Positions 4,907-29,961 of a DNA stretch of 39,416 bases are shown here, piece by piece. A program made the position numbers and the translations under genes. The notes under the pieces were generated by a model. It was not told the origin of the DNA, did not search any database, and was given only the letters and a program-made list of their open reading frames with translations. This DNA comes from Bdellovibrionales bacterium. GTDB taxonomy: Bacteria > Bdellovibrionota > Bdellovibrionia > Bdellovibrionales > UBA1609. Location of the stretch: the NCBI GenBank assembly GCA_023299885.1, contig JALZUS010000040.1, positions 1 through 39,416 on the forward strand, given 5' to 3'. Within the stretch, counting starts at the first letter, position 1, and every line of letters begins with the position of its first letter.

Positions 4907-5766
4907 TTACACAGCAAGAAGCTTTAAGCTAGGCTGAAAAGTTTTCGGTACTGGCGGTCTTCCGTTTAAACTACTATGCGGCCTTACTGTATTATAGTGA
5001 TGCCTCCATCTTTCAATAATCACTTGCGCCTCTTTTAGAGTATAAAATATTTCTCCATCTAGTAACTCATACCTCATCTTGCCATTAAAGCTCTCACAGT
5101 AACCATTCTCCCAAGGACTCCCGGGCTGGATAAATAACGGCTTTACGTCTAAACTTTTAAGCCAACTTACTAACTTTTTTGCTATAAACTCTGGGCCATT
5201 ATCTGACCTTATATGCTCTGGTATCCCATGCTTTAAAAATAACTCTGACAAGGCTAAAATAACGTCTTGTGAGTGTATACGTCTCTGCACTAAGCTCATT
5301 AAGCATTCTTTAGTAAATTCATCTATTATGTTTAGTATCTTATAACTACGTCCATTATGAGTGCGGTCTGCCACAAAATCATAACTCCAGACATGGTTCT
5401 TATGCTCAGGCCGCTGCCTCACACAGCTCCCATCAGCAAGCCATAGCCTTCTTCTCTTAGCCTTCTTCTCTTAGGCTGCTTCTGCGGTACCTTTAAACCT
5501 TCTTCTCTCCAAATATCGTAAACTAAGTTTTTACCCACATCGTGGCCCTCATTATTTAAAAGATGATTCACTTGTCTATAGCCATACCTTCCGTAATCTT
5601 CTGCCTTAGCTATAACCAGTGGCCTAAAGTATTCTTTTCTAAAGTTTTGTTTTTTTATATATTTTTGTGTCGTTCGAGGCTGCCCGATAATCTTACAAGC
5701 GCGACGCTCACTAATACTATATTTAACCACAGCATTAGTTACTGCCTCACGCTTCTTATGCGGGCT
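4907..5766 (-). pseudogene. IS3-family transposase orfB (DDE integrase), broken by a 14-bp duplication
   Basis: The upstream part (about 5766-5447) encodes SERRACKIIGQPRTTQKY and QKQPKRRRL, typical of the orfB N-terminus. The downstream part (5446-4907) has the DDE core: WSYDFVADRT (first Asp), RSDNGPEF (second Asp), ENGYCESFNGKMRYELL (Glu), and RPHSSLNGRPP at the end. The frames are separated by a tandem copy of a 14-bp word (5447-5474). Removing one copy restores KRRRLWLADGSCVRQRPEH, the normal family sequence. As in other IS3 elements, orfB probably began by frameshift from orfA, so the true start is not defined. Confidence 0.9.
5447..5474. repeat. 14-bp tandem duplication inactivating the transposase
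   Basis: CCTTCTTCTCTTAG occurs at 5447-5460 and again at 5461-5474 with no mismatch. Fourteen bases is not a multiple of three, so the reading frame of orfB shifts exactly here. Confidence 0.95.
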
Positions 5767-6190: not shown

Positions 6191-7816
6191 TTATTTTAAT
6201 GAGCTTTTACAGCTAGACTTAGGCGGTTTGATGATATTTTTGTTCTCAGGCCACTTAAGAAAACCAATAGGTAAGTTTTTGCTCAAATAATCTATACGCT
6301 TTACACGTGTGTCTTCGAAAGCCTCTTCATACGCCTTTTCATCTGTGTACCATTTAGTACGATCCTCTGTAATTTTCCAGTAATCTCTTTTGTGAACACC
6401 AGCTATACCAAGTGCGTCTAAGTAAGTATTCGCGATAGAGCTATTCACAGATTTGTACCATTCCAAAAACTGTATTAAGCCGGTAGTGGACCTAGATTCT
6501 TCGCCATCTTTATCTTTTTCAGATTCAGCCTCAGCAATCAGCTGAGCGAATGAAGGAAAACTTACTAGTTGATTAAATTCATTTTCCAGCGCATTTAATT
6601 TCTTACTTTTTGAATCTTCATCATAAATGTGTGAGTAAATAAACTGATTTATTACTTTGCTGCCAGCTTGAGCTCTGACTAATGCAGAAAACACTTTTTC
6701 TTTCATATCTACAATAGACTTATTAAGGCCTTCTTGTTTATATGTTTCTATTATTAAGCTTTGTCCAACACGAGTATTTGCCATAGCAGCTTTAAGCCAA
6801 AAGTCAGAGCCTTCATGGTTAAGCCAGCCATCATTAATAATAATTTTAGCAAGTTTTTCGGCATGATAATTCTTGGCTTCCCTCATAAGCCTGTAAATAA
6901 CTGCAGGGTTATCCATTGTTAGGCTATTACTGGCAATAGCAGTTAAAAATGCGTCTACATACATACCGTCTGTAGCAAAGTTTGGCTTCATATCTTTATG
7001 TATTAATATATCTATACTTGAATTAGCTCTGGCCATTAAATCAATTTCTTGAGCCTCTGTTAAGGCAGTGCCAGTGAGCTCTTTAACTAAAGCTGTTCTG
7101 TCATAAAGCCCTCTTTGGTCTCTCATTACCAAAAGAGGGTTTAATAGCTGATCAAATTTTTCTGATAAGTCTGAAACAGTGCCAGGCTCATACTTTAAAT
7201 ATCTAACAAATCCATTTTTTGGATTGATAGGTAAGGGTTTGTTATTAAAATTACTGGTATCTCTTAGCCAGCCCTTATCGTTCGAAGGGTTCCACTTCAT
7301 ACGAACGTCATAATCTTCGTATGTTCCACGGTCAGGATCAAATATCCAATTATCTTTAGTCTTGTAAGATCCAAAAAATGTATCTCGATAAGATCTTACT
7401 CCGGTTCTGTTGTCATAAAAACTCACTGATTCAGGATCAAAAGTCCAAACTGAGTTTGAGCTTTCCATAGCTCTTTTTATTGCGCGCTCATGCCTCTCAT
7501 CAGCTTCAGTATGACTGCTTCCTTCAGAGAAGCTTCCTGTTTTGTCGTATATTTGCCTTTTTTTAGAATCACTTAAAACTTTATAAGCATTTGTTACTCT
7601 TATAAATTTTTTGCTAGCTTCAGGATCGTCTGGATTTAAATCAGGATGAGTTTGCTTTGATAGTTTTCTGTAAGCAGACTTGACCTCCTGCTGAGAGGCC
7701 GACTTGTCAATTTCAAGAATATCATAAAGGTTATCAGAGTAGGCCGGATAGCCTACACTAAGAGTAAAAATAGTAATGCAAAGCAGTCTATATAAATGCC
7801 TAAATTTGTTATGCAC
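6191..7816 (-). CDS. Exported J-domain (DnaJ-like) protein
   Basis: 541 residues starting with GTG, supported by SD GGAG five bases upstream. Residues 1-27 form a signal peptide (basic start, hydrophobic LLCITIFTLSVGYPA, then AYS). The J-domain spans about 29-92: NLYDILEIDKSASQQEVKSA, the essential HPD motif at 57-59, and VTNAYKVLSDSKKRQIYDKTG. There is no Gly/Phe region, zinc finger or classic DnaJ C-terminal domain; the remaining 440 residues are mostly helical and unrecognised. J-proteins stimulate Hsp70 ATPases, which are normally cytoplasmic, so an exported one is unusual. If the N-terminus stays uncleaved it would be a membrane anchor. The gene is downstream of a 620-bp gap and upstream of the IS. 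Confidence 0.8.
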   Translation of the reverse strand: MHNKFRHLYRLLCITIFTLSVGYPAYSDNLYDILEIDKSASQQEVKSAYRKLSKQTHPDLNPDDPEASKKFIRVTNAYKVLSDSKKRQIYDKTGSFSEGSSHTEADERHERAIKRAMESSNSVWTFDPESVSFYDNRTGVRSYRDTFFGSYKTKDNWIFDPDRGTYEDYDVRMKWNPSNDKGWLRDTSNFNNKPLPINPKNGFVRYLKYEPGTVSDLSEKFDQLLNPLLVMRDQRGLYDRTALVKELTGTALTEAQEIDLMARANSSIDILIHKDMKPNFATDGMYVDAFLTAIASNSLTMDNPAVIYRLMREAKNYHAEKLAKIIINDGWLNHEGSDFWLKAAMANTRVGQSLIIETYKQEGLNKSIVDMKEKVFSALVRAQAGSKVINQFIYSHIYDEDSKSKKLNALENEFNQLVSFPSFAQLIAEAESEKDKDGEESRSTTGLIQFLEWYKSVNSSIANTYLDALGIAGVHKRDYWKITEDRTKWYTDEKAYEEAFEDTRVKRIDYLSKNLPIGFLKWPENKNIIKPPKSSCKSSLK

Positions 7817-7919
7817 GGCTTCTCCAGTTTCTTTGATATATTCTTGAAAATAAAATGCAATAACATAGCCAATGCTTCTATGCTCTCTAGCACTAATTAA
7901 TTAGACTTGAAGCTTAATG

Positions 7920-8436: not shown

Positions 8437-9603
8437 ATGGGTTATTACGTAAGAAAACTAGAAAACAAAAAGTCTGTACCTAAATGGAAAGTCCAGTACA
8501 TTTCATGTAAAAAATCTGACCAAAAAGTTGAGTCTAAATCTAAGTTGCCGAGGCGCACTTGGGATATTTCAAAAGACAGATGGCGTGGACTTGGCTTTTA
8601 TAAAACAATGACAATTATTGAGGCTAAAGAAATTGCAAAATCTTTAAATGCTAAACAAAGATTAAAAAGACAAGAAGAGTCCTATCAAAAATTTCAAGAG
8701 CAAATGTCTAAGGAGAGATTAGAAAAAGAAGCTTTCTTGCCAGCTTCATTCATTGCTGAGTTTGAAGAAAGGTTTATCAGAAAGCGCAAGTGCAGAAATA
8801 AAAAAGATTTTAGAAAAATATCTAAATCACATGTCGCTTGGAGAACAGCACAAAGATTAATTAAAGATATTGGTTTGCCACCTAATGAGTGGTTTGAACA
8901 CACTTATGAAGTTTATGATTGGTTTTATCGCGAAGAGTGCAGTGTTGCTTATGCTGTGAGTATTTTAAAATTTATGAATATTTGGTGTTACTTTTTTTGC
9001 AAGAAGATGGGGAGGCCGTTTTTACAGGTGCCATATCCAAGAGGACATGAGAGAAGACGACTTATTGATAAGTACCATACAAGTCACAGGAATAAGAAAA
9101 AAGCTTCAAAACCGATTACTCCAGAAATGTTGATAAAAGCAAAAGGTAAAATAAATCAAGAAAATTTTAATTGGCTATTTATATCTGTATGGTTTGGGCT
9201 AAGGCCAAAAGAAGTAGACAGCTTGAAAAATGAAGAGCTATTTAAAATAGAAAAACTAAGTACTGGTAAAATAGTCTTATGGGTTTATCAGACTAAAATT
9301 ATTAGTTTGCCGCCAAGCGAGAGGTGGAAACTAATACCAGCACTTTTTGATGAACAAGAGTTTGCGCTAAGGACAATAGAGTCTGGAGTATTTAAGCGCC
9401 CCTTAGTTAAAACAATCAAAAAGCATGTTGGGCCAGAGGTAAGCACCTATGGTGGCCGCAAGGGGTTTACTGATTTAATGCTAGAAAAAGGTTTTAGCTT
9501 AGAAGCGATATCTCAATGGATGGGGCATACGACAATTAATAGGACCTGGAGGCATTATAAAAATAGGACTAATATTAAATTTACTTTGGTGAGGAATGTT
9601 TGA
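8437..9603 (+). CDS. Tyrosine recombinase (phage-type integrase)
   Basis: 388 residues, the usual size for a phage or island integrase. The N-terminal 230 residues hold the arm-binding and core-binding regions (basic, helical). The catalytic domain follows: box I Arg256 in FGLRPKEVDSL, a likely beta-hairpin Lys287 (YQTKI), box II STYGGRKGF with Arg341, His364 in WMGHTTINRTW, and the nucleophile Tyr374 in RHYKNR. The box II position normally held by His (HxxR) is Tyr338, a known variant in the family. It is intact. The nearby tRNA-flank repeats suggest it integrates at tRNA-Ala. The start is clear from the SD. Confidence 0.92.
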   Translation: MGYYVRKLENKKSVPKWKVQYISCKKSDQKVESKSKLPRRTWDISKDRWRGLGFYKTMTIIEAKEIAKSLNAKQRLKRQEESYQKFQEQMSKERLEKEAFLPASFIAEFEERFIRKRKCRNKKDFRKISKSHVAWRTAQRLIKDIGLPPNEWFEHTYEVYDWFYREECSVAYAVSILKFMNIWCYFFCKKMGRPFLQVPYPRGHERRRLIDKYHTSHRNKKKASKPITPEMLIKAKGKINQENFNWLFISVWFGLRPKEVDSLKNEELFKIEKLSTGKIVLWVYQTKIISLPPSERWKLIPALFDEQEFALRTIESGVFKRPLVKTIKKHVGPEVSTYGGRKGFTDLMLEKGFSLEAISQWMGHTTINRTWRHYKNRTNIKFTLVRNV

Positions 9604-9735
9604 GGGGTATCTATATGTTCATATACCACAGCTAGCTTTTGTAAGAAATACATGATGTAAATAATATTTTCTATTTGAAGCACTTTGCTGCAAATAATTT
9701 TGCTAAAGGTATTTGCTATTGATATAAGCTTTCTT

Positions 9736-10548
9736 ATGCAAGAGCAGTCATTATTTTATATTCAATACCTCAGAGAGTCTTATGCTAAGAAAAAGCAAAG
9801 AAATTCTAGTTATTCGCTGAGGTCGTTTGCGAATCACTTAGATATTGATAGTGGCTCGCTGTCTGCAATTATGAACAATAAAAGAGTACCTTCGTTAAAA
9901 TTAGCAAAGCGTATTTTAGATAAATTAGATTGCTCTGTAAAAGAAGAAGAGCAATTTTTGCTATCTATTGCTCATAAGCAAAGGCAGAGGAATCTTAAGC
10001 GTATAGACCCTGAAGTGCGTAAACTTGAAAAGCAAGGTTATAGTAAAACAACTCTACTTGATGAATCTGTGTACCAGACAGTCAGTGAGTGGCATCATGC
10101 TGCGATACTAGAGCTTACATATAAGTCTGATTTTAAAGGAACGCCTGGGTATATTGTTGATAAGTTAGGTATTAGCTACTTAGATGCTAAGACCGCTCTT
10201 GAGCGATTATTGGATTTAGGTTTACTTAAAAAAGAAGGCGAAAAAATTGTAAAAGCTGACCATCATCTTGATGGAAACAGCAAGGGTATAACTAGTAAAG
10301 CTTTAAGAAAAAAGCAAAAAGCGATACGTGAAAAAGCCATTGAGGCTATTGATAAGCAGCCATTAGCATCAAGATATATGACGACAGTTACCATGTGTAT
10401 TGATCCAGATTTTTTAAGTAAGGCTCAAAAATTAATTGATCAATTTAATGACTCGCTATGCTCTTTGTTGGAGTCGGGTGATCGTAAAGAAGTATACACA
10501 ATGGAAATAGGATTATTCTCTTTAGAAAATGGTATTAAACAAAAATAA
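9736..10548 (+). CDS. TIGR02147-family helix-turn-helix regulator, copy 1
   Basis: About 270 residues. The N-terminus has an Xre-like helix-turn-helix preceded by the family's opening (YIQYLRESYAKKKQRNSSYS, then LRSFANHLDIDSGSLSAIMN). The middle holds a predicted winged-helix segment (ILELTYKSDFKGTPGYIVDK and TALERLLDLGLLKKE). The C-terminus ends with the family pattern YMTTVTMCIDPDFLSKAQKLI and VYTMEIGLFSLE. ATG 9736 is chosen because it matches the family N-terminus; no good SD precedes it, and in-frame TTG codons lie upstream (9685, 9700). Only 10 bp separate it from a secreted-protein gene, so the two are coupled. The family's ligand is unknown. Confidence 0.85.
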   Translation: MQEQSLFYIQYLRESYAKKKQRNSSYSLRSFANHLDIDSGSLSAIMNNKRVPSLKLAKRILDKLDCSVKEEEQFLLSIAHKQRQRNLKRIDPEVRKLEKQGYSKTTLLDESVYQTVSEWHHAAILELTYKSDFKGTPGYIVDKLGISYLDAKTALERLLDLGLLKKEGEKIVKADHHLDGNSKGITSKALRKKQKAIREKAIEAIDKQPLASRYMTTVTMCIDPDFLSKAQKLIDQFNDSLCSLLESGDRKEVYTMEIGLFSLENGIKQK

Positions 10549-13684: not shown

Positions 13685-14767
13685 ATGAAAGTCTTATTGA
13701 TTCTTATAGTTGTTCTTCAGAGCTTGCATCTTTATGCGGCTCAAGGCTGTATTGATTCATTAGTGAAAGATCAACATACAGAGGACAGTCAAAGCTTTAA
13801 TTTTATAATGCCACATAAAAATGGTTTTGTAGAAGTGCAAGAGTACAAAAGAGAAGGCTCTAACTTTACTGCCTTAGTTGTTAGGCCAACAAAGTACTCT
13901 GATAAAAAAGATCTAATTAACTCTAGTAACAAAAATGCTTTAGGCTCAGCAATGGATAAGCTGAGCTCATTTTTAAGTGAAAATTATAAAAGGCGAAAGT
14001 GGGATCATTCGTTTACTAAGAAAGTAACAAGCAGCAGTTCGCTTTTTGAAAGCCTAGAAAATACAACAAGGATTATAATATTTGATGAGTCAAAAAATAT
14101 AGTAGGCTCTTTTTCTATCATCTATTCTTTAGCTTCAGAAGATCAGTATAGTGGTCTGCTTCCAGTTGAAAATCATTTTGGAATTAAAATCAATCGAGAA
14201 GATAGTAGCACAAGCGGATCTTCAGATAGGCTACTAGTTGAACTAGGTAGCTTTGCTGTCGATCATAGTCATCAAAACCGTAGGCAGATTCTTGAGGAAA
14301 TATATTTTAATTTTTTGATTCAATCTTATCATGCTCCTTTTAAGTCATCGGGTTATAGTCAGGGCAAGTCTATATATTCTGAAACGCTTTTTAAAAAGGG
14401 TAAGCCCTTTTTCTTTACCTATGCCGATAGAGTGGGCCAGTTAATGTATCGTGAATTTGGCTTTTCAAAAGATAATAGAATTACAAGTGACTCCTATAAT
14501 GTCAGCTGGAACTTATTGGCTAATGATTCTACGGCAGCAATGGCCCCGCTTAAAAGGTCAGGCATGAAAAGTGCTGCTAAAGATGCATTTGAATTTATTG
14601 AAAGCAGGCTTTTTGTGAGTAACTCTTCTGGTGCAAGTTGGATGGGTCTATCTGTTGCAGAAGAAATGTCTGATTCCTTTAAAGTTGATAAGTTCAGAAG
14701 GTATTTTTTTTCTGAATATGAAGAAAATATGTCTGATGTCTTTTTTGATTATACTGTTGCTGACTAA
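13685..14767 (+). CDS. Secreted protein, faint resemblance to GNAT or autoinducer-synthase folds
   Basis: 360 residues, no clear SD before ATG 13685. The signal peptide is residues 1-18 (MKVLLILIVVLQSLHLYA). The middle contains TTRIIIFDESKNIVGSFSI, RLLVELGSFAVDHSHQNRR with QILEEIYFNFLIQSY, and YADRVGQLMYREFGF. The order recalls the GNAT core found in acyltransferases and LuxI/FeeM-type synthases: a strand, then an E(L/I).R.AVD stretch, a helix, then Y...GF. This is my reading of a weak pattern and may be wrong. It is convergent with the TetR gene, with overlapping stops. Otherwise unrecognised. Confidence 0.65.
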   Translation: MKVLLILIVVLQSLHLYAAQGCIDSLVKDQHTEDSQSFNFIMPHKNGFVEVQEYKREGSNFTALVVRPTKYSDKKDLINSSNKNALGSAMDKLSSFLSENYKRRKWDHSFTKKVTSSSSLFESLENTTRIIIFDESKNIVGSFSIIYSLASEDQYSGLLPVENHFGIKINREDSSTSGSSDRLLVELGSFAVDHSHQNRRQILEEIYFNFLIQSYHAPFKSSGYSQGKSIYSETLFKKGKPFFFTYADRVGQLMYREFGFSKDNRITSDSYNVSWNLLANDSTAAMAPLKRSGMKSAAKDAFEFIESRLFVSNSSGASWMGLSVAEEMSDSFKVDKFRRYFFSEYEENMSDVFFDYTVAD

Positions 14768-15558: not shown

Positions 15559-16263
15559 ATGAAAGTACTTATAGTTTTAATTTTATTAATATCAAACCCT
15601 TCATTTGCATCTGAGTGTATTGAGTCCCTACACTTCTATAGGGCGGATAAAGTCTCTAGTAATGTAATGAAACAGTTTGAAGAAAATGATTATTCAAGCG
15701 TTACTTTGGTTCTCAGTAGCCAGTTTAGTGATGAAGATTTAAATAAAGGCCTTAAAGAGCTAGTGAATAGCAATAGAGACGAATCGCATATAAATACTAT
15801 TGATTTAAAAAATAAATTCGCTTTTGTGTACCTTTCTAGGCAAAAAATGATCGAATTATCAAATAGTAAACTTATTGATAATTTATTAGAGGACTATAGC
15901 AGTTTAGATAATCATTTAAATTTTAGGTATATTTTAAAATTAAACGAAAAATTTGGTCGCTCAGTTTTAGAAGTTGAGGCTCGATATAAACTTTTGTCAG
16001 AAATAAAAGAAAATATTACTAAGTACTCAGAGTATAAAATTTCTGGAACTGGCATTAGCGTTATTGAGGGAAGGTTTTCGTTAAGTATTTATTATAGTGA
16101 AGACTTTGGTGGTGAGCACACAGGTGTTCCGGATGAGCTAAGTCTTTATAGTAAAAAAGATCAGGTTAAGTGGCTGGGTAGAGAGCTGAATATTAGCGAG
16201 TTACCTTATGACAGGCATTACTTTGTTGAGCAGAGGTTTATAGGCGAAGCTTCAAGTAATTAA
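15559..16263 (+). CDS. Secreted protein, first gene of a three-gene operon
   Basis: 234 residues; SD GAGGGAG precedes ATG 15559. The signal peptide is residues 1-17 (MKVLIVLILLISNPSFA). Its mature start, SECIESLHFYRADK, is comparable to the QGCIDSLVKDQH start of the 360-residue protein at 13685, which hints at distant kinship. Only one cysteine is present, and the composition is polar and mixed alpha/beta. No family is recognised. It leads an operon with 16293-16787 and 16789-17193 and lies divergent from the TetR gene. Confidence 0.75.
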   Translation: MKVLIVLILLISNPSFASECIESLHFYRADKVSSNVMKQFEENDYSSVTLVLSSQFSDEDLNKGLKELVNSNRDESHINTIDLKNKFAFVYLSRQKMIELSNSKLIDNLLEDYSSLDNHLNFRYILKLNEKFGRSVLEVEARYKLLSEIKENITKYSEYKISGTGISVIEGRFSLSIYYSEDFGGEHTGVPDELSLYSKKDQVKWLGRELNISELPYDRHYFVEQRFIGEASSN

Positions 16264-26166: not shown

Positions 26167-27693
26167 TTAGTCTGTAGACTCCAAATCACTAAGAGATGAG
26201 CCTAAAGACTTTAGTAAGTTATTAAGTAAACCAGAGCTTTTGATAAAGGCTCTCATTGTGTCATTAATATAATTTTTTTGCGTTTGAGAGTCTTTGTCGT
26301 AAACGACACCTTGGTAGTATTTAATGAGTGTATCAATGGCTACGATTTGTGCTGCTTCAATTTTTTTAATTTTACTTTTAGAGTTAAAAAACAAAGGATG
26401 CGTTGCCCAATTAAAGAAGAGCATGCGAAGTTCGATATGCTGATTTGAGCCACTATTATGAAAGCTTGTATAGAGTAAATCAAAAAGTTGTATTCTTTTT
26501 TTACGATTTATATTCTCTAAGTTATAGTTATAAACAAAGCTATTGGATAATGCTCTAGAAATTTTCTCATTTTTTCTTAGGTAATTTTCTTTATTTGCTT
26601 TTACCTGCGGCTTAATAATGGTGTTAATATAGTTTTTACCGAGGTAGGTTTCCGGCAAATAGCTTTGCGTAAGCATAGAAGTTTGAATGATATCTAAGAC
26701 ATTATTGTTTACTTTTTGGTTATTTAAATCGGTAAGTAGCCTGTGTTCTAGCCCCCAAACCTTTTTTTGGTCATAAAAGCTTTCGCCATTCTTTCCAATA
26801 TAGCCTTTTTTTAATGAGTCTATATGTCCTGTTTTAAGAGTGTTATTTATTTCATGATATAATCGACCGGCCCCTAGATAATTAATCTCTTTATAAGAGG
26901 CTGTATGGCCGTAATTAAAGTAAATATTAACAAGCTCAACTAGTAAGTTAACCGCGCTATAATAGTAGGTCAGTGAGTATATATTTTGGACAGTCATTTT
27001 TGGTTTAGGTCCAACAATATGTACATGTTGATAGGGGAGTACTATCCCCAATAAATTCATCAACTTCCAAGTATCAGCAGAATTGGTAGAGGCTTTTTTC
27101 CCGGTTCTTATATGGAGCTCTAATAGAATCCTGTGGTTTCTAAGCTTGCCAATGGTTCTTTCAATTTCTACTTGGGGCTGAAGCATATCAAGGTCTAATT
27201 TTTGTAGGCCCGGTTTTAGCTTCTTTCCAAATAGGGTTATGGGTTTTTCAATATTAACTTCAATATTTTTCTTAACCTTTAGATTTACAACTGTTTTTCT
27301 GTTAAAAATACTTAATTGCTTATCACTATTTAGTTTAAAGAGGAGTTTAGACTTTACAGTGAAATCAATATCATCCCATAAAATTTTGCGTAGCTTTTGT
27401 ATCGGGTGATTTATGAGCGCATAGGTCTTAAACCATAATGGTATAGGTATTTCAAAGCCATATTCATCAATAAATAGGGCTCCAACTGTGCCATCAGATG
27501 TTGTTAGGATATTGGCGACAACAGGAGTAAAAGTTACTTCAGCCTCAACAGAAGAGTCATGCGTGGGGTCTGTAAGTGGATTGTTAGCATTATTGAGCAC
27601 AGTACCACACTGAGACGCGTAAATTGTTACACAACTGAAAAATACATATGCAAATAAGAGGGCTACAATGGCCCTGAGCTTAAAAGTTTTCAC
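26167..27693 (-). CDS. Exported protein of unknown function, 508 residues
   Basis: The start is GTG 27693 without a clear SD; a palindrome (AAGTATACTT) lies just upstream. The N-terminus is a signal peptide (KLRAIVALLFAYVFFSCV, then TIYAS). The mature protein is helical and basic after a strand-rich first 180 residues (EVTFTPVVANILTTSDGTVG, NLKVKKNIEVNIEKPITLF). The motif HILLELHIRTGKKAS and many tyrosines are seen; no catalytic motif is obvious. Probably periplasmic. It is followed by 25568-26122 on the same strand. Confidence 0.7.
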   Translation of the reverse strand: MKTFKLRAIVALLFAYVFFSCVTIYASQCGTVLNNANNPLTDPTHDSSVEAEVTFTPVVANILTTSDGTVGALFIDEYGFEIPIPLWFKTYALINHPIQKLRKILWDDIDFTVKSKLLFKLNSDKQLSIFNRKTVVNLKVKKNIEVNIEKPITLFGKKLKPGLQKLDLDMLQPQVEIERTIGKLRNHRILLELHIRTGKKASTNSADTWKLMNLLGIVLPYQHVHIVGPKPKMTVQNIYSLTYYYSAVNLLVELVNIYFNYGHTASYKEINYLGAGRLYHEINNTLKTGHIDSLKKGYIGKNGESFYDQKKVWGLEHRLLTDLNNQKVNNNVLDIIQTSMLTQSYLPETYLGKNYINTIIKPQVKANKENYLRKNEKISRALSNSFVYNYNLENINRKKRIQLFDLLYTSFHNSGSNQHIELRMLFFNWATHPLFFNSKSKIKKIEAAQIVAIDTLIKYYQGVVYDKDSQTQKNYINDTMRAFIKSSGLLNNLLKSLGSSLSDLESTD

Positions 27694-29088: not shown

Positions 29089-29961
29089 TTATTTAATTAT
29101 GTCGATAACCTTCTTCCAAAGGCTTTGTGGTGCTTTTATATTTCTTTGCTTTGGCAGATATCTTTGGAGCTGGCCTGGGTGTTGTCCTTTTTCAACCAGA
29201 CTAATTTGATCCTGAGGGTCAATAATAATTCCACCAAGGTCCTCGATCTGTTTAAGAATATTAGCTTCATCCATAAATAGCTCACCAGAGTGAGTCTTTA
29301 AAATATTAATAACTTCAATGTCGCCGTAGTCAGCAAGTAATAAAAGTGCATAATTATACTTGAGTCTGTTTATTTTAATATCAGCAAGCTTTTCAAAAAG
29401 CTGCTCATTGCGTAGTTCGGCTTCTTTAAGAGCTATTGGTGCATCAAACCTGTAGTCTAGATTGCTAAAAAAATCAGTGAGGCTGGCCGCTAGTCTTTGA
29501 GCTTTCTTTGCATGCTGGCTGTTGCCTGATTTTTGTATCAATAAAAGGGTTCCAGTAAGTTTAAAGAGCTCTTCTCGGTCGCTTCGCCCATCATAAAGCT
29601 TACTTCTCATATAATTTTTGTAAGCAATACTTTGTTGCCTGTGAAATCTTAAGAGTTCACTGCTTGTGGCTTTTTGGGAAAAATTTAAAAGCAGGTCTAT
29701 ATGTGGTTCTAGTTTATCGAGTAAGTTTTTCTCTTTACTTTTTGAAGTTGTAAAATCATAAGTGAGCATTTTGTTAGAATTGTAAAGTTCAGTAATTCTA
29801 TCTATAGCATCACTAGCATGATGTGCGCTTACCTTCGTCTTTCCTAGATAGTAGCCGCAGCCGGGCTCTGCAGAAAAAGCTGTTGATGCCACAAAAATTA
29901 AAACTACTGTTATAGGTAGTGTTCGTAAACTTTTTAAACAAAGAGAGACGTAATTTGTCAT
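29089..29961 (-). CDS. Exported protein with a possible short helical-repeat region
   Basis: 290 residues. The N-terminal hydrophobic segment (TLPITVVLIFVASTAFSA) looks like a signal peptide after a slightly long n-region. The middle is helical and Leu-rich. Residues about 195-255 (NYALLLLADYGDIEVINILK and DEANILKQIEDLGGIIIDPQ) recall the spacing of ankyrin-like repeats, but not well enough to call. The C-terminus is basic. No SD is obvious. Function unknown; it leads the pair with 28652-29071. Confidence 0.7.
   Translation of the reverse strand: MTNYVSLCLKSLRTLPITVVLIFVASTAFSAEPGCGYYLGKTKVSAHHASDAIDRITELYNSNKMLTYDFTTSKSKEKNLLDKLEPHIDLLLNFSQKATSSELLRFHRQQSIAYKNYMRSKLYDGRSDREELFKLTGTLLLIQKSGNSQHAKKAQRLAASLTDFFSNLDYRFDAPIALKEAELRNEQLFEKLADIKINRLKYNYALLLLADYGDIEVINILKTHSGELFMDEANILKQIEDLGGIIIDPQDQISLVEKGQHPGQLQRYLPKQRNIKAPQSLWKKVIDIIK

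Follow-up and report, generated by a model that had tools for sequence, protein, structure and literature searches.

A J-domain protein with a predicted signal peptide and a conserved C-terminal cysteine tail in a member of the Bdellovibrionales

The finding of a J-domain placed behind an export signal leads us to ask which Hsp70 such a protein could possibly serve. The question is raised by a stretch of 39,416 nucleotides from a Bdellovibrionales bacterium (GenBank assembly GCA_023299885.1, contig JALZUS010000040.1), hereafter the window, one gene of which encodes a J-domain protein, P0001, that begins with a predicted signal peptide. J-domains work by stimulating Hsp70. We tentatively favour the view that P0001 is a Sec-exported J-domain co-chaperone that would engage an Hsp70 outside the cytosol of its producer, probably the DnaK of prey, and that would be sorted or tethered by a cysteine tail at its C-terminus.

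An intact J-domain behind a signal peptide

The preliminary description of this locus, made from the letters of the window, had placed a gene at 6191-7816 and left its strand unstated. An open reading frame does occupy this interval on the minus strand, where it opens with a GTG at 7816 and reaches its stop at 6191; the plus strand of the interval contains stop codons throughout. The features on which the argument begins are the following.

6191..7816, minus strand: P0001, predicted exported J-domain protein, 541 residues, GTG start (translation, list of open reading frames, Pfam)
7822..7825, minus strand: ribosome-binding site GGAG, 5 nucleotides before the GTG (read in the sequence)
7736..7816, minus strand: predicted Sec signal peptide, residues 1-27 (PAYS↓DN; kept in paralogue and homologue, rule-based script)
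7544..7732, minus strand: J-domain, residues 29-91 (Pfam PF00226, 86.5 bits)
7640..7648, minus strand: HPD motif, residues 57-59 (invariant in 9 of 9 alignment rows)

Within the 569-codon open frame the GTG is the sole ATG, GTG or TTG codon ahead of the J-domain, so that the N-terminus cannot be trimmed back to the J-domain by re-annotation; together with the GGAG it bears out a start that had been described as well supported. The N-terminus consists of a basic n-region, a short hydrophobic core and the sequence PAYS↓DN, with alanine at -3 and serine at -1, which agrees with what is expected of a Sec substrate of signal peptidase I; positive residues precede the hydrophobic stretch and acidic ones follow it. 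No lipobox with a cysteine at +1, as in bacterial lipoproteins, is found at the cleavage site. The signal peptide was called from these features, from conservation and from a home-made rule-based script, with no dedicated predictor. The PF00226 match runs over model positions 1-63 of 63 (E 1.3e-24, cut-off 27.8 bits), which confirms the complete J-domain with HPD that had first been noticed. A J-domain of about 70 residues with HPD suggests that P0001 belongs to class C (type III) of the J-domain proteins (Hsp40): no Pfam match at E up to 10 was obtained for a zinc finger or a DnaJ C-terminal domain, Pfam likewise detects no G/F region, and the DnaJ models of NCBIfam match the J-domain and its edge only, far below cut-off. 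The complete J-domain with HPD is shared with class C proteins in general and with two proteins of the same genome, the DnaJ encoded beside DnaK and a CbpA-like protein; unlike P0001, both of the latter lack a signal peptide.

The same genome (1.84 Mb in 86 contigs, 92% complete) encodes on contig C31 a full-length paralogue of P0001, 69% identical, and a homologue with 33% identity is present in genome G122, which belongs to a different family within the order. All three proteins have the signal peptide, the J-domain, the same middle and the C-terminal cysteine. Since the start, the signal peptide and the J-domain are kept at the same places in all three, the association of signal peptide and J-domain cannot be put down to chance. 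The proposed check for homologues that begin directly at the J-domain was run and left the initial reading standing, both full-length homologues carrying the signal peptide. Between the paralogues the ratio of nonsynonymous to synonymous substitution rates (dN/dS) is 0.19 overall, 0.10 in the J-domain (residues 28-95) and 0.08 in residues 124-218, low values which argue that both parts are kept by selection; a cysteine at residue 13 of P0001, within the signal peptide, is a tryptophan in the paralogue. We regard the case for an export architecture, as read from sequence, as strong, and because the signal peptide leads straight into an intact and selected J-domain, the latter should be released beyond the inner membrane.

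One could still imagine an uncleaved or inverted signal anchor that leaves the J-domain in the cytosol, in the manner of DjlA-like proteins, whose cytosolic J-domain is accompanied by a membrane helix at the N-terminus, or a wrongly chosen start, P0001 then being an ordinary cytosolic co-chaperone. Although cleavage is a prediction from sequence features, we hold this to be highly improbable given the charge pattern, the short h-region and the A-x-S cleavage site present in both paralogues, the single start codon before the J-domain and the distribution of the cysteine tail described below.

Hsp70 partners

The preliminary description had also remarked that an exported J-domain has no obvious Hsp70 partner, and this impression held: a survey of ten genomes that encode exported J-proteins, in which part of 31 matches were read and the genome of P0001 is 92% complete, revealed no Hsp70 with an export signal. 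The HSP70 matches in that genome are one DnaK, beside the ordinary DnaJ, and one MreB-like protein. Each of the ten genomes has one full-length DnaK, without a signal peptide in the nine of ten N-termini examined (that of G035 was not parsed), and G122 has an additional partial second DnaK. Seven shorter Hsp70-like loci, which we take to be MreB- or YegD-like, had no signal peptide in the N-termini examined either. J-proteins of the endoplasmic reticulum lumen and exported Hsp40s of Plasmodium likewise carry a J-domain behind a signal sequence and work across a membrane; in contrast to P0001, for which none was found, they have an Hsp70 of the same organism in the target compartment.

Recurrence of exported J-proteins and their cysteine tail

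P0001 is one of several such proteins in its order. Among the J-domain matches are at least 12 distinct exported J-proteins of ordinary size, whose middles fall into several unrelated kinds, and in genus g37 the orthologue group of one of them extends over 11 genomes. A further four (L043, L051, L145 and L146), from small genomes of the family of P0001, are giants, three of 1275-1694 residues and one in an open frame of 1538; they apparently form a separate class and, from their later hydrophobic stretches, look membrane-bound further on. Exported J-proteins were chosen from the search listings by match position and frame length rather than by a full census, and no clear further example was present outside the order among the phylum-wide matches listed.

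What the exported J-proteins of ordinary size share, despite their differing middles, is the way they end.

6194..6211, minus strand: C-terminal cysteine tail CKSSLK, residues 536-541 (translation, tail comparison)

Cys 536 is the only cysteine of mature P0001 and is followed by five residues (KSSLK). Exported J-proteins end with SSCKSSLK, STCGSSLK, QICKSLFRD, ITCKSLFGI, VTCEGLLK, VTCGEFLRKIFR, KTCKSALSPD and others. By script, a C-x-x-x-[L/F] motif lies within the last 22 residues in 20 of the 23 exported J-proteins that were parsed, and none of the 71 J-proteins without a signal peptide has it there (Fisher p 1.3e-17, the sequences being related and thus not independent counts), a distribution that also speaks against a cytosolic P0001. 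The three misses are L225, with a one-residue insertion, and the giants L043 and L145; the giants L051 and L146, which were not among the 23, are tailless too. These counts, like those given below for other families and random samples, depend on a home-made gene caller and the home-made signal-peptide rule, and the motif was first noticed in exported J-proteins before being tested on two other families and on the random samples. All 11 g37 orthologues have the signal peptide, the J-domain and exactly one mature cysteine, which lies in the tail, with F at +4 in 10 of them. In the alignment of six of the 11, the J-domain is conserved, the low-complexity linker has a mean column identity of 0.03-0.38 per block and the tail reaches about 0.66. 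The evidence for a conserved cysteine tail, at the level of sequence, is strong. In two g37 species a protein of 515-517 residues is encoded before the exported J gene and overlaps it (L233:6997-8550:+ and L234:7375-8922:+); it has an N-terminal hydrophobic stretch and ends in SGVCK or SGVCR.

The g37 proteins bear on another possibility, namely that the J-domain acts before export by recruiting the producer's DnaK to the preprotein and keeping the long helical region unfolded for Sec. The position of the J-domain directly behind the signal peptide and the cytosolic DnaK of the genome would fit; however, the g37 orthologues are mostly low-complexity linker past the J-domain, a sequence that would not have to be kept unfolded, and yet conserve J-domain and tail, the latter being left unexplained. 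We find this idea quite improbable.

The same tail in other exported families

Samples of proteins from the genome of P0001 and its relatives were scanned for tailed proteins with a signal peptide, and a domain search of these led to two further large families, which by their domains are of an ATP-dependent kind. The first is represented in the genome of P0001 by an AAA+/M41 protease of 1361 residues (L252:14178-18263:-, contig C64). It has a signal peptide, two regions that match AAA+, a peptidase M41 domain containing HETGH and one mature cysteine, which lies in the tail SACARALK. Relatives were identified in 28 of the 141 class genomes, its own included; all 27 closed reading frames have a cysteine within the last 16 residues, with L or F at +4 in 24, Y in 2 and H in 1. 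Of the 28 loci, which omit the fragment L281, 27 gave a closed frame, the L268 gene running off its contig. The rule detected a signal peptide in 22 of 29 loci (two of the 22 are doubtful and some of the others are truncated). The second family consists of ABC1/UbiB-like kinases such as L091:7906-9993:- of G047, with a signal peptide and the tail RCEMVFN. Its relatives, in 30 of 141 class genomes, have the cysteine in 29 of 30 cases, that is in 29 of the 29 complete ones, since the sole tailless member, L292, is a gene with an open end; L or F stands at +4 in 27 and Y in 2, and the rule finds a signal peptide in 28 of 30. At least ten more tailed proteins have no recognised domain.

In the J-proteins and in both of these families the tail usually holds the sole mature cysteine. 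The consensus over 66 tails, ten J tails among them entered by hand, is [S/R/T]-C-[E/K/A/S/Q]-x-[L/V/A/I]-[F/L], with 4 to 13 residues after the cysteine, mostly five. Since there is usually one mature cysteine, only an intermolecular bond could form, and the tail might simply serve homodimerisation by disulfide without any role in sorting, which would be compatible with our proposal and with each of its alternatives; but L or F at +4 and a hydrophobic residue at +3 are kept in three unrelated families, which is more than a disulfide needs, and we consider this explanation unlikely.

In the genome of P0001 a similar motif occurs just behind the signal peptide of single-cysteine proteins (CIDSL, CIESL, CADSL, CADAL, CSKFL); no such N-terminal motif was shown in G047. 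Among 20 single-cysteine signal-peptide proteins of that genome with the cysteine near an end, several of which look like lipoproteins, L or F occupies +4 in 10 of 19, while no other downstream offset has it in more than 4 of 19. Two such exported proteins with a single mature cysteine in the motif behind the signal peptide have recognisable domains, a peptidase M3 (L154:12255-14324:+, CADAL) and a HIT-type protein (L159:5688-6626:+, DcpS_C, CADSL).

The region between J-domain and tail

The part of P0001 past the J-domain divides as follows.

7448..7531, minus strand: variable linker, residues 96-123 (50% identity and dN/dS 0.44 between the paralogues)
7163..7447, minus strand: most conserved unrecognised part, residues 124-218 (81% identity, dN/dS 0.08)
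6233..7162, minus strand: mostly helical part, residues 219-528 (two structure models, no significant fold match)

Some 440 residues had initially been called unrecognised, and Pfam and NCBIfam indeed contain no family that matches P0001 outside the J-domain and its edge; what had escaped attention is that these residues end in the cysteine tail common to other exported proteins. The suggested structure prediction gave AlphaFold models of residues 97-541 with a mean predicted local distance difference test (pLDDT) of 39.9 and 52.9, from inputs of two and three sequences respectively. They are mostly helical; the first half of residues 124-218 appears beta-rich, a call of low confidence. Foldseek returned no match to the PDB at E 0.001 or better (best 0.084), so that the check did not lead to a significant fold match. 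VIA-align scored highest (Z 7.7) with PUF-type helical repeats, aligned to model residues 163-282, a similarity that by the tool's own warning may be just a common arrangement. The region past the J-domain can thus be described as predicted helical, possibly a solenoid.

Across 368 phylum genomes, the middle of P0001 was found in a single one besides its own. No homologue of the C-terminal region was present in 46 other genomes of the family (0/46) or in IMG/VR, phage or plasmid records; two further matches to it, at E 0.05-0.06, were dropped as chance. Compared with P0003, a tailed neighbour, its best local match is weak and covers the last 38 residues only (E 0.63).

Discussion

How, then, would an exported J-domain work? 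According to the scenario that we tentatively favour, Sec export would put the J-domain of P0001 beyond the inner membrane, where it may engage a foreign Hsp70, which would most probably be the DnaK of a second bacterium, either in the prey cytosol or in the prey lumen after lysis. The helical region might select the client. Together with the exported AAA+/M41 proteases that carry the same tail, P0001 would probably help in the unfolding, disaggregation or handing over of prey proteins. The tail would sort or tether a subset of exported proteins, those that depend on ATP or, as here with Hsp70, on a partner that uses it; its chemistry could involve a disulfide tether freed in a reducing cytosol, or lipidation. 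ATP is bound by AAA+ and ABC1 domains, whereas the periplasm of Gram-negative bacteria is held to lack it; because the J-, AAA+/M41 and ABC1 proteins need ATP or Hsp70, they may act in a foreign, ATP-containing space, most simply that of another bacterium. With respect to P0001 itself, we infer the prey as the site of action, an idea that the preliminary description had already raised.

It is tempting to extend this hypothesis to the tail as a whole: the motif [S/T/R]-C-x-x-[hydrophobic]-[L/F] at the end of single-cysteine Sec-exported proteins (in the genome of P0001 also behind the signal peptide) would be an undescribed targeting signal, marking an ATP-dependent kit of Hsp70 co-chaperones, AAA+/M41 proteases and ABC1 kinases that is sent into the prey cytosol and driven by prey ATP and prey DnaK. 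A disulfide that ties such proteins to a carrier and is undone in the reducing cytosol of the prey is one mechanism by which this could work. We put this bolder proposal forward as a doubtful one.

Another explanation, to which we grant a real if limited likelihood, is that P0001 acts in the periplasm or at the surface of its producer without any Hsp70. Its J-domain would then serve for binding or as a holdase, and a disulfide or a lipid on the tail cysteine would fix the protein to an envelope partner. A Sec signal by itself leads to the periplasm, a single cysteine near the terminus fits tethering, and the giant exported J-proteins with their later hydrophobic stretches look envelope-bound. 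On the other hand, the J-domain and its HPD are under strong purifying selection, needless for a mere module, and the same tail is found on AAA+ and ABC1 proteins whose need of ATP is hard to reconcile with a periplasm lacking it.

Several points weigh against the prey scenario, and our confidence in the prey step is modest. Any tailed protein would have to cross a prey membrane. Exported J-proteins are scattered rather than universal, and the four giants lack the tail. In random samples from three genomes, a single-cysteine tail was found in 5 of 458 signal-peptide proteins versus 1 of 695 other proteins, J-proteins aside (p 0.04); tails of any cysteine number are slightly commoner in signal-peptide proteins (5/209 versus 4/344 in the genome of P0001), and in that genome alone, with J-proteins kept, the enrichment has p 0.11. 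Given this weak enrichment, the tail is better seen as rare and kept in certain families than as a mark of all exported proteins. Moreover, 46 untailed controls also held cytosol-type domains, at least partly through false positives of the loose signal-peptide rule, and we therefore do not claim that ATP-dependent domains are statistically over-represented in tailed proteins. One of the untailed controls, a set that was drawn from several of these genomes, has a match to the Pfam family 'Bdellovibrio Beta-sandwich', a weak pointer to predation.

Among known systems, the closest functional parallel to P0001 would be HopI1 of Pseudomonas syringae, a J-domain effector whose J-domain is reported to be essential for engaging Hsp70 (PMC6802931). 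Like P0001 as we read it, HopI1 is a bacterial J-domain protein, and it acts in the cell of another organism; however, HopI1 acts in plants, whereas P0001 has a Sec signal, another C-terminal region, a cysteine tail and a delivery that is hypothetical. For the tail, the closest known tag appears to be MYXO-CTERM, a C-terminal sorting tag described in the relevant text of PMC11980579 as an invariant cysteine followed by a transmembrane helix and an arginine-rich end. An invariant cysteine near the C-terminus is common to both (Cys 536 in P0001), whereas the helix and arginine-rich end are absent from P0001, the tails having 4 to 13 residues at this place. Neither the tail nor a periplasmic bacterial J-protein was found in the titles and opening abstract lines of papers in the open-licence literature, most subscription papers lying outside its scope. 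The relevant text of PMC2797640 mentions two strong DnaJ homologues of Bdellovibrio and names no exported one, and a B. bacteriovorus proteome paper (PMC12546842) makes no mention of DnaJ, ABC1, UbiB, AAA, prey cytoplasm or cysteine. How Bdellovibrio gains access to the cytoplasmic contents of its prey is treated as an open question in the relevant part of a 2023 review (PMC10225642). If the order of P0001 is that of such predators, the tail, being common to exported Hsp70 co-chaperones, AAA+ proteases and kinases, would define which proteins are candidates for acting in prey. Should predation play no part, a shared cysteine signal at the C-terminus of exported proteins that depend on ATP and Hsp70 would still represent a new bacterial sorting class.

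Neighbouring genes

In L001:4544-11276:- the paralogue sits among exported proteins that bear the cysteine motif, with proteins of 413 residues (CSKFL behind the signal peptide) and 513 residues (CKSSL near the end) upstream and one of 407 residues with CSNSL downstream; none of the three matches a Pfam family above cut-off. Signal-peptide proteins with C-x-x-x-L behind the signal peptide are also encoded elsewhere in the window, at 13685-14767 + (CIDSL), 15559-16263 + (CIESL), 26167-27693 - (CGTVL) and 29089-29961 - (CGYYL), the first having a weak FeeM match (E 0.0004), and a neighbour of P0001 in the window has a weak SIL1 match (E 0.089).

A scan for promoters and terminators around the P0001 gene gave hardly more sites than in shuffled sequence. 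Downstream of the gene an IS3-like transposase lies in two open reading frames (4907-5730, minus strand); for part of its DNA, IS3 transposases annotated on plasmids give matches of about 70%. Upstream, at 8437-10548 on the plus strand, are an integrase-like recombinase (Phage_integrase, below cut-off) and an HTH/DUF4423 regulator, which suggests that this neighbourhood is mobile or once was.
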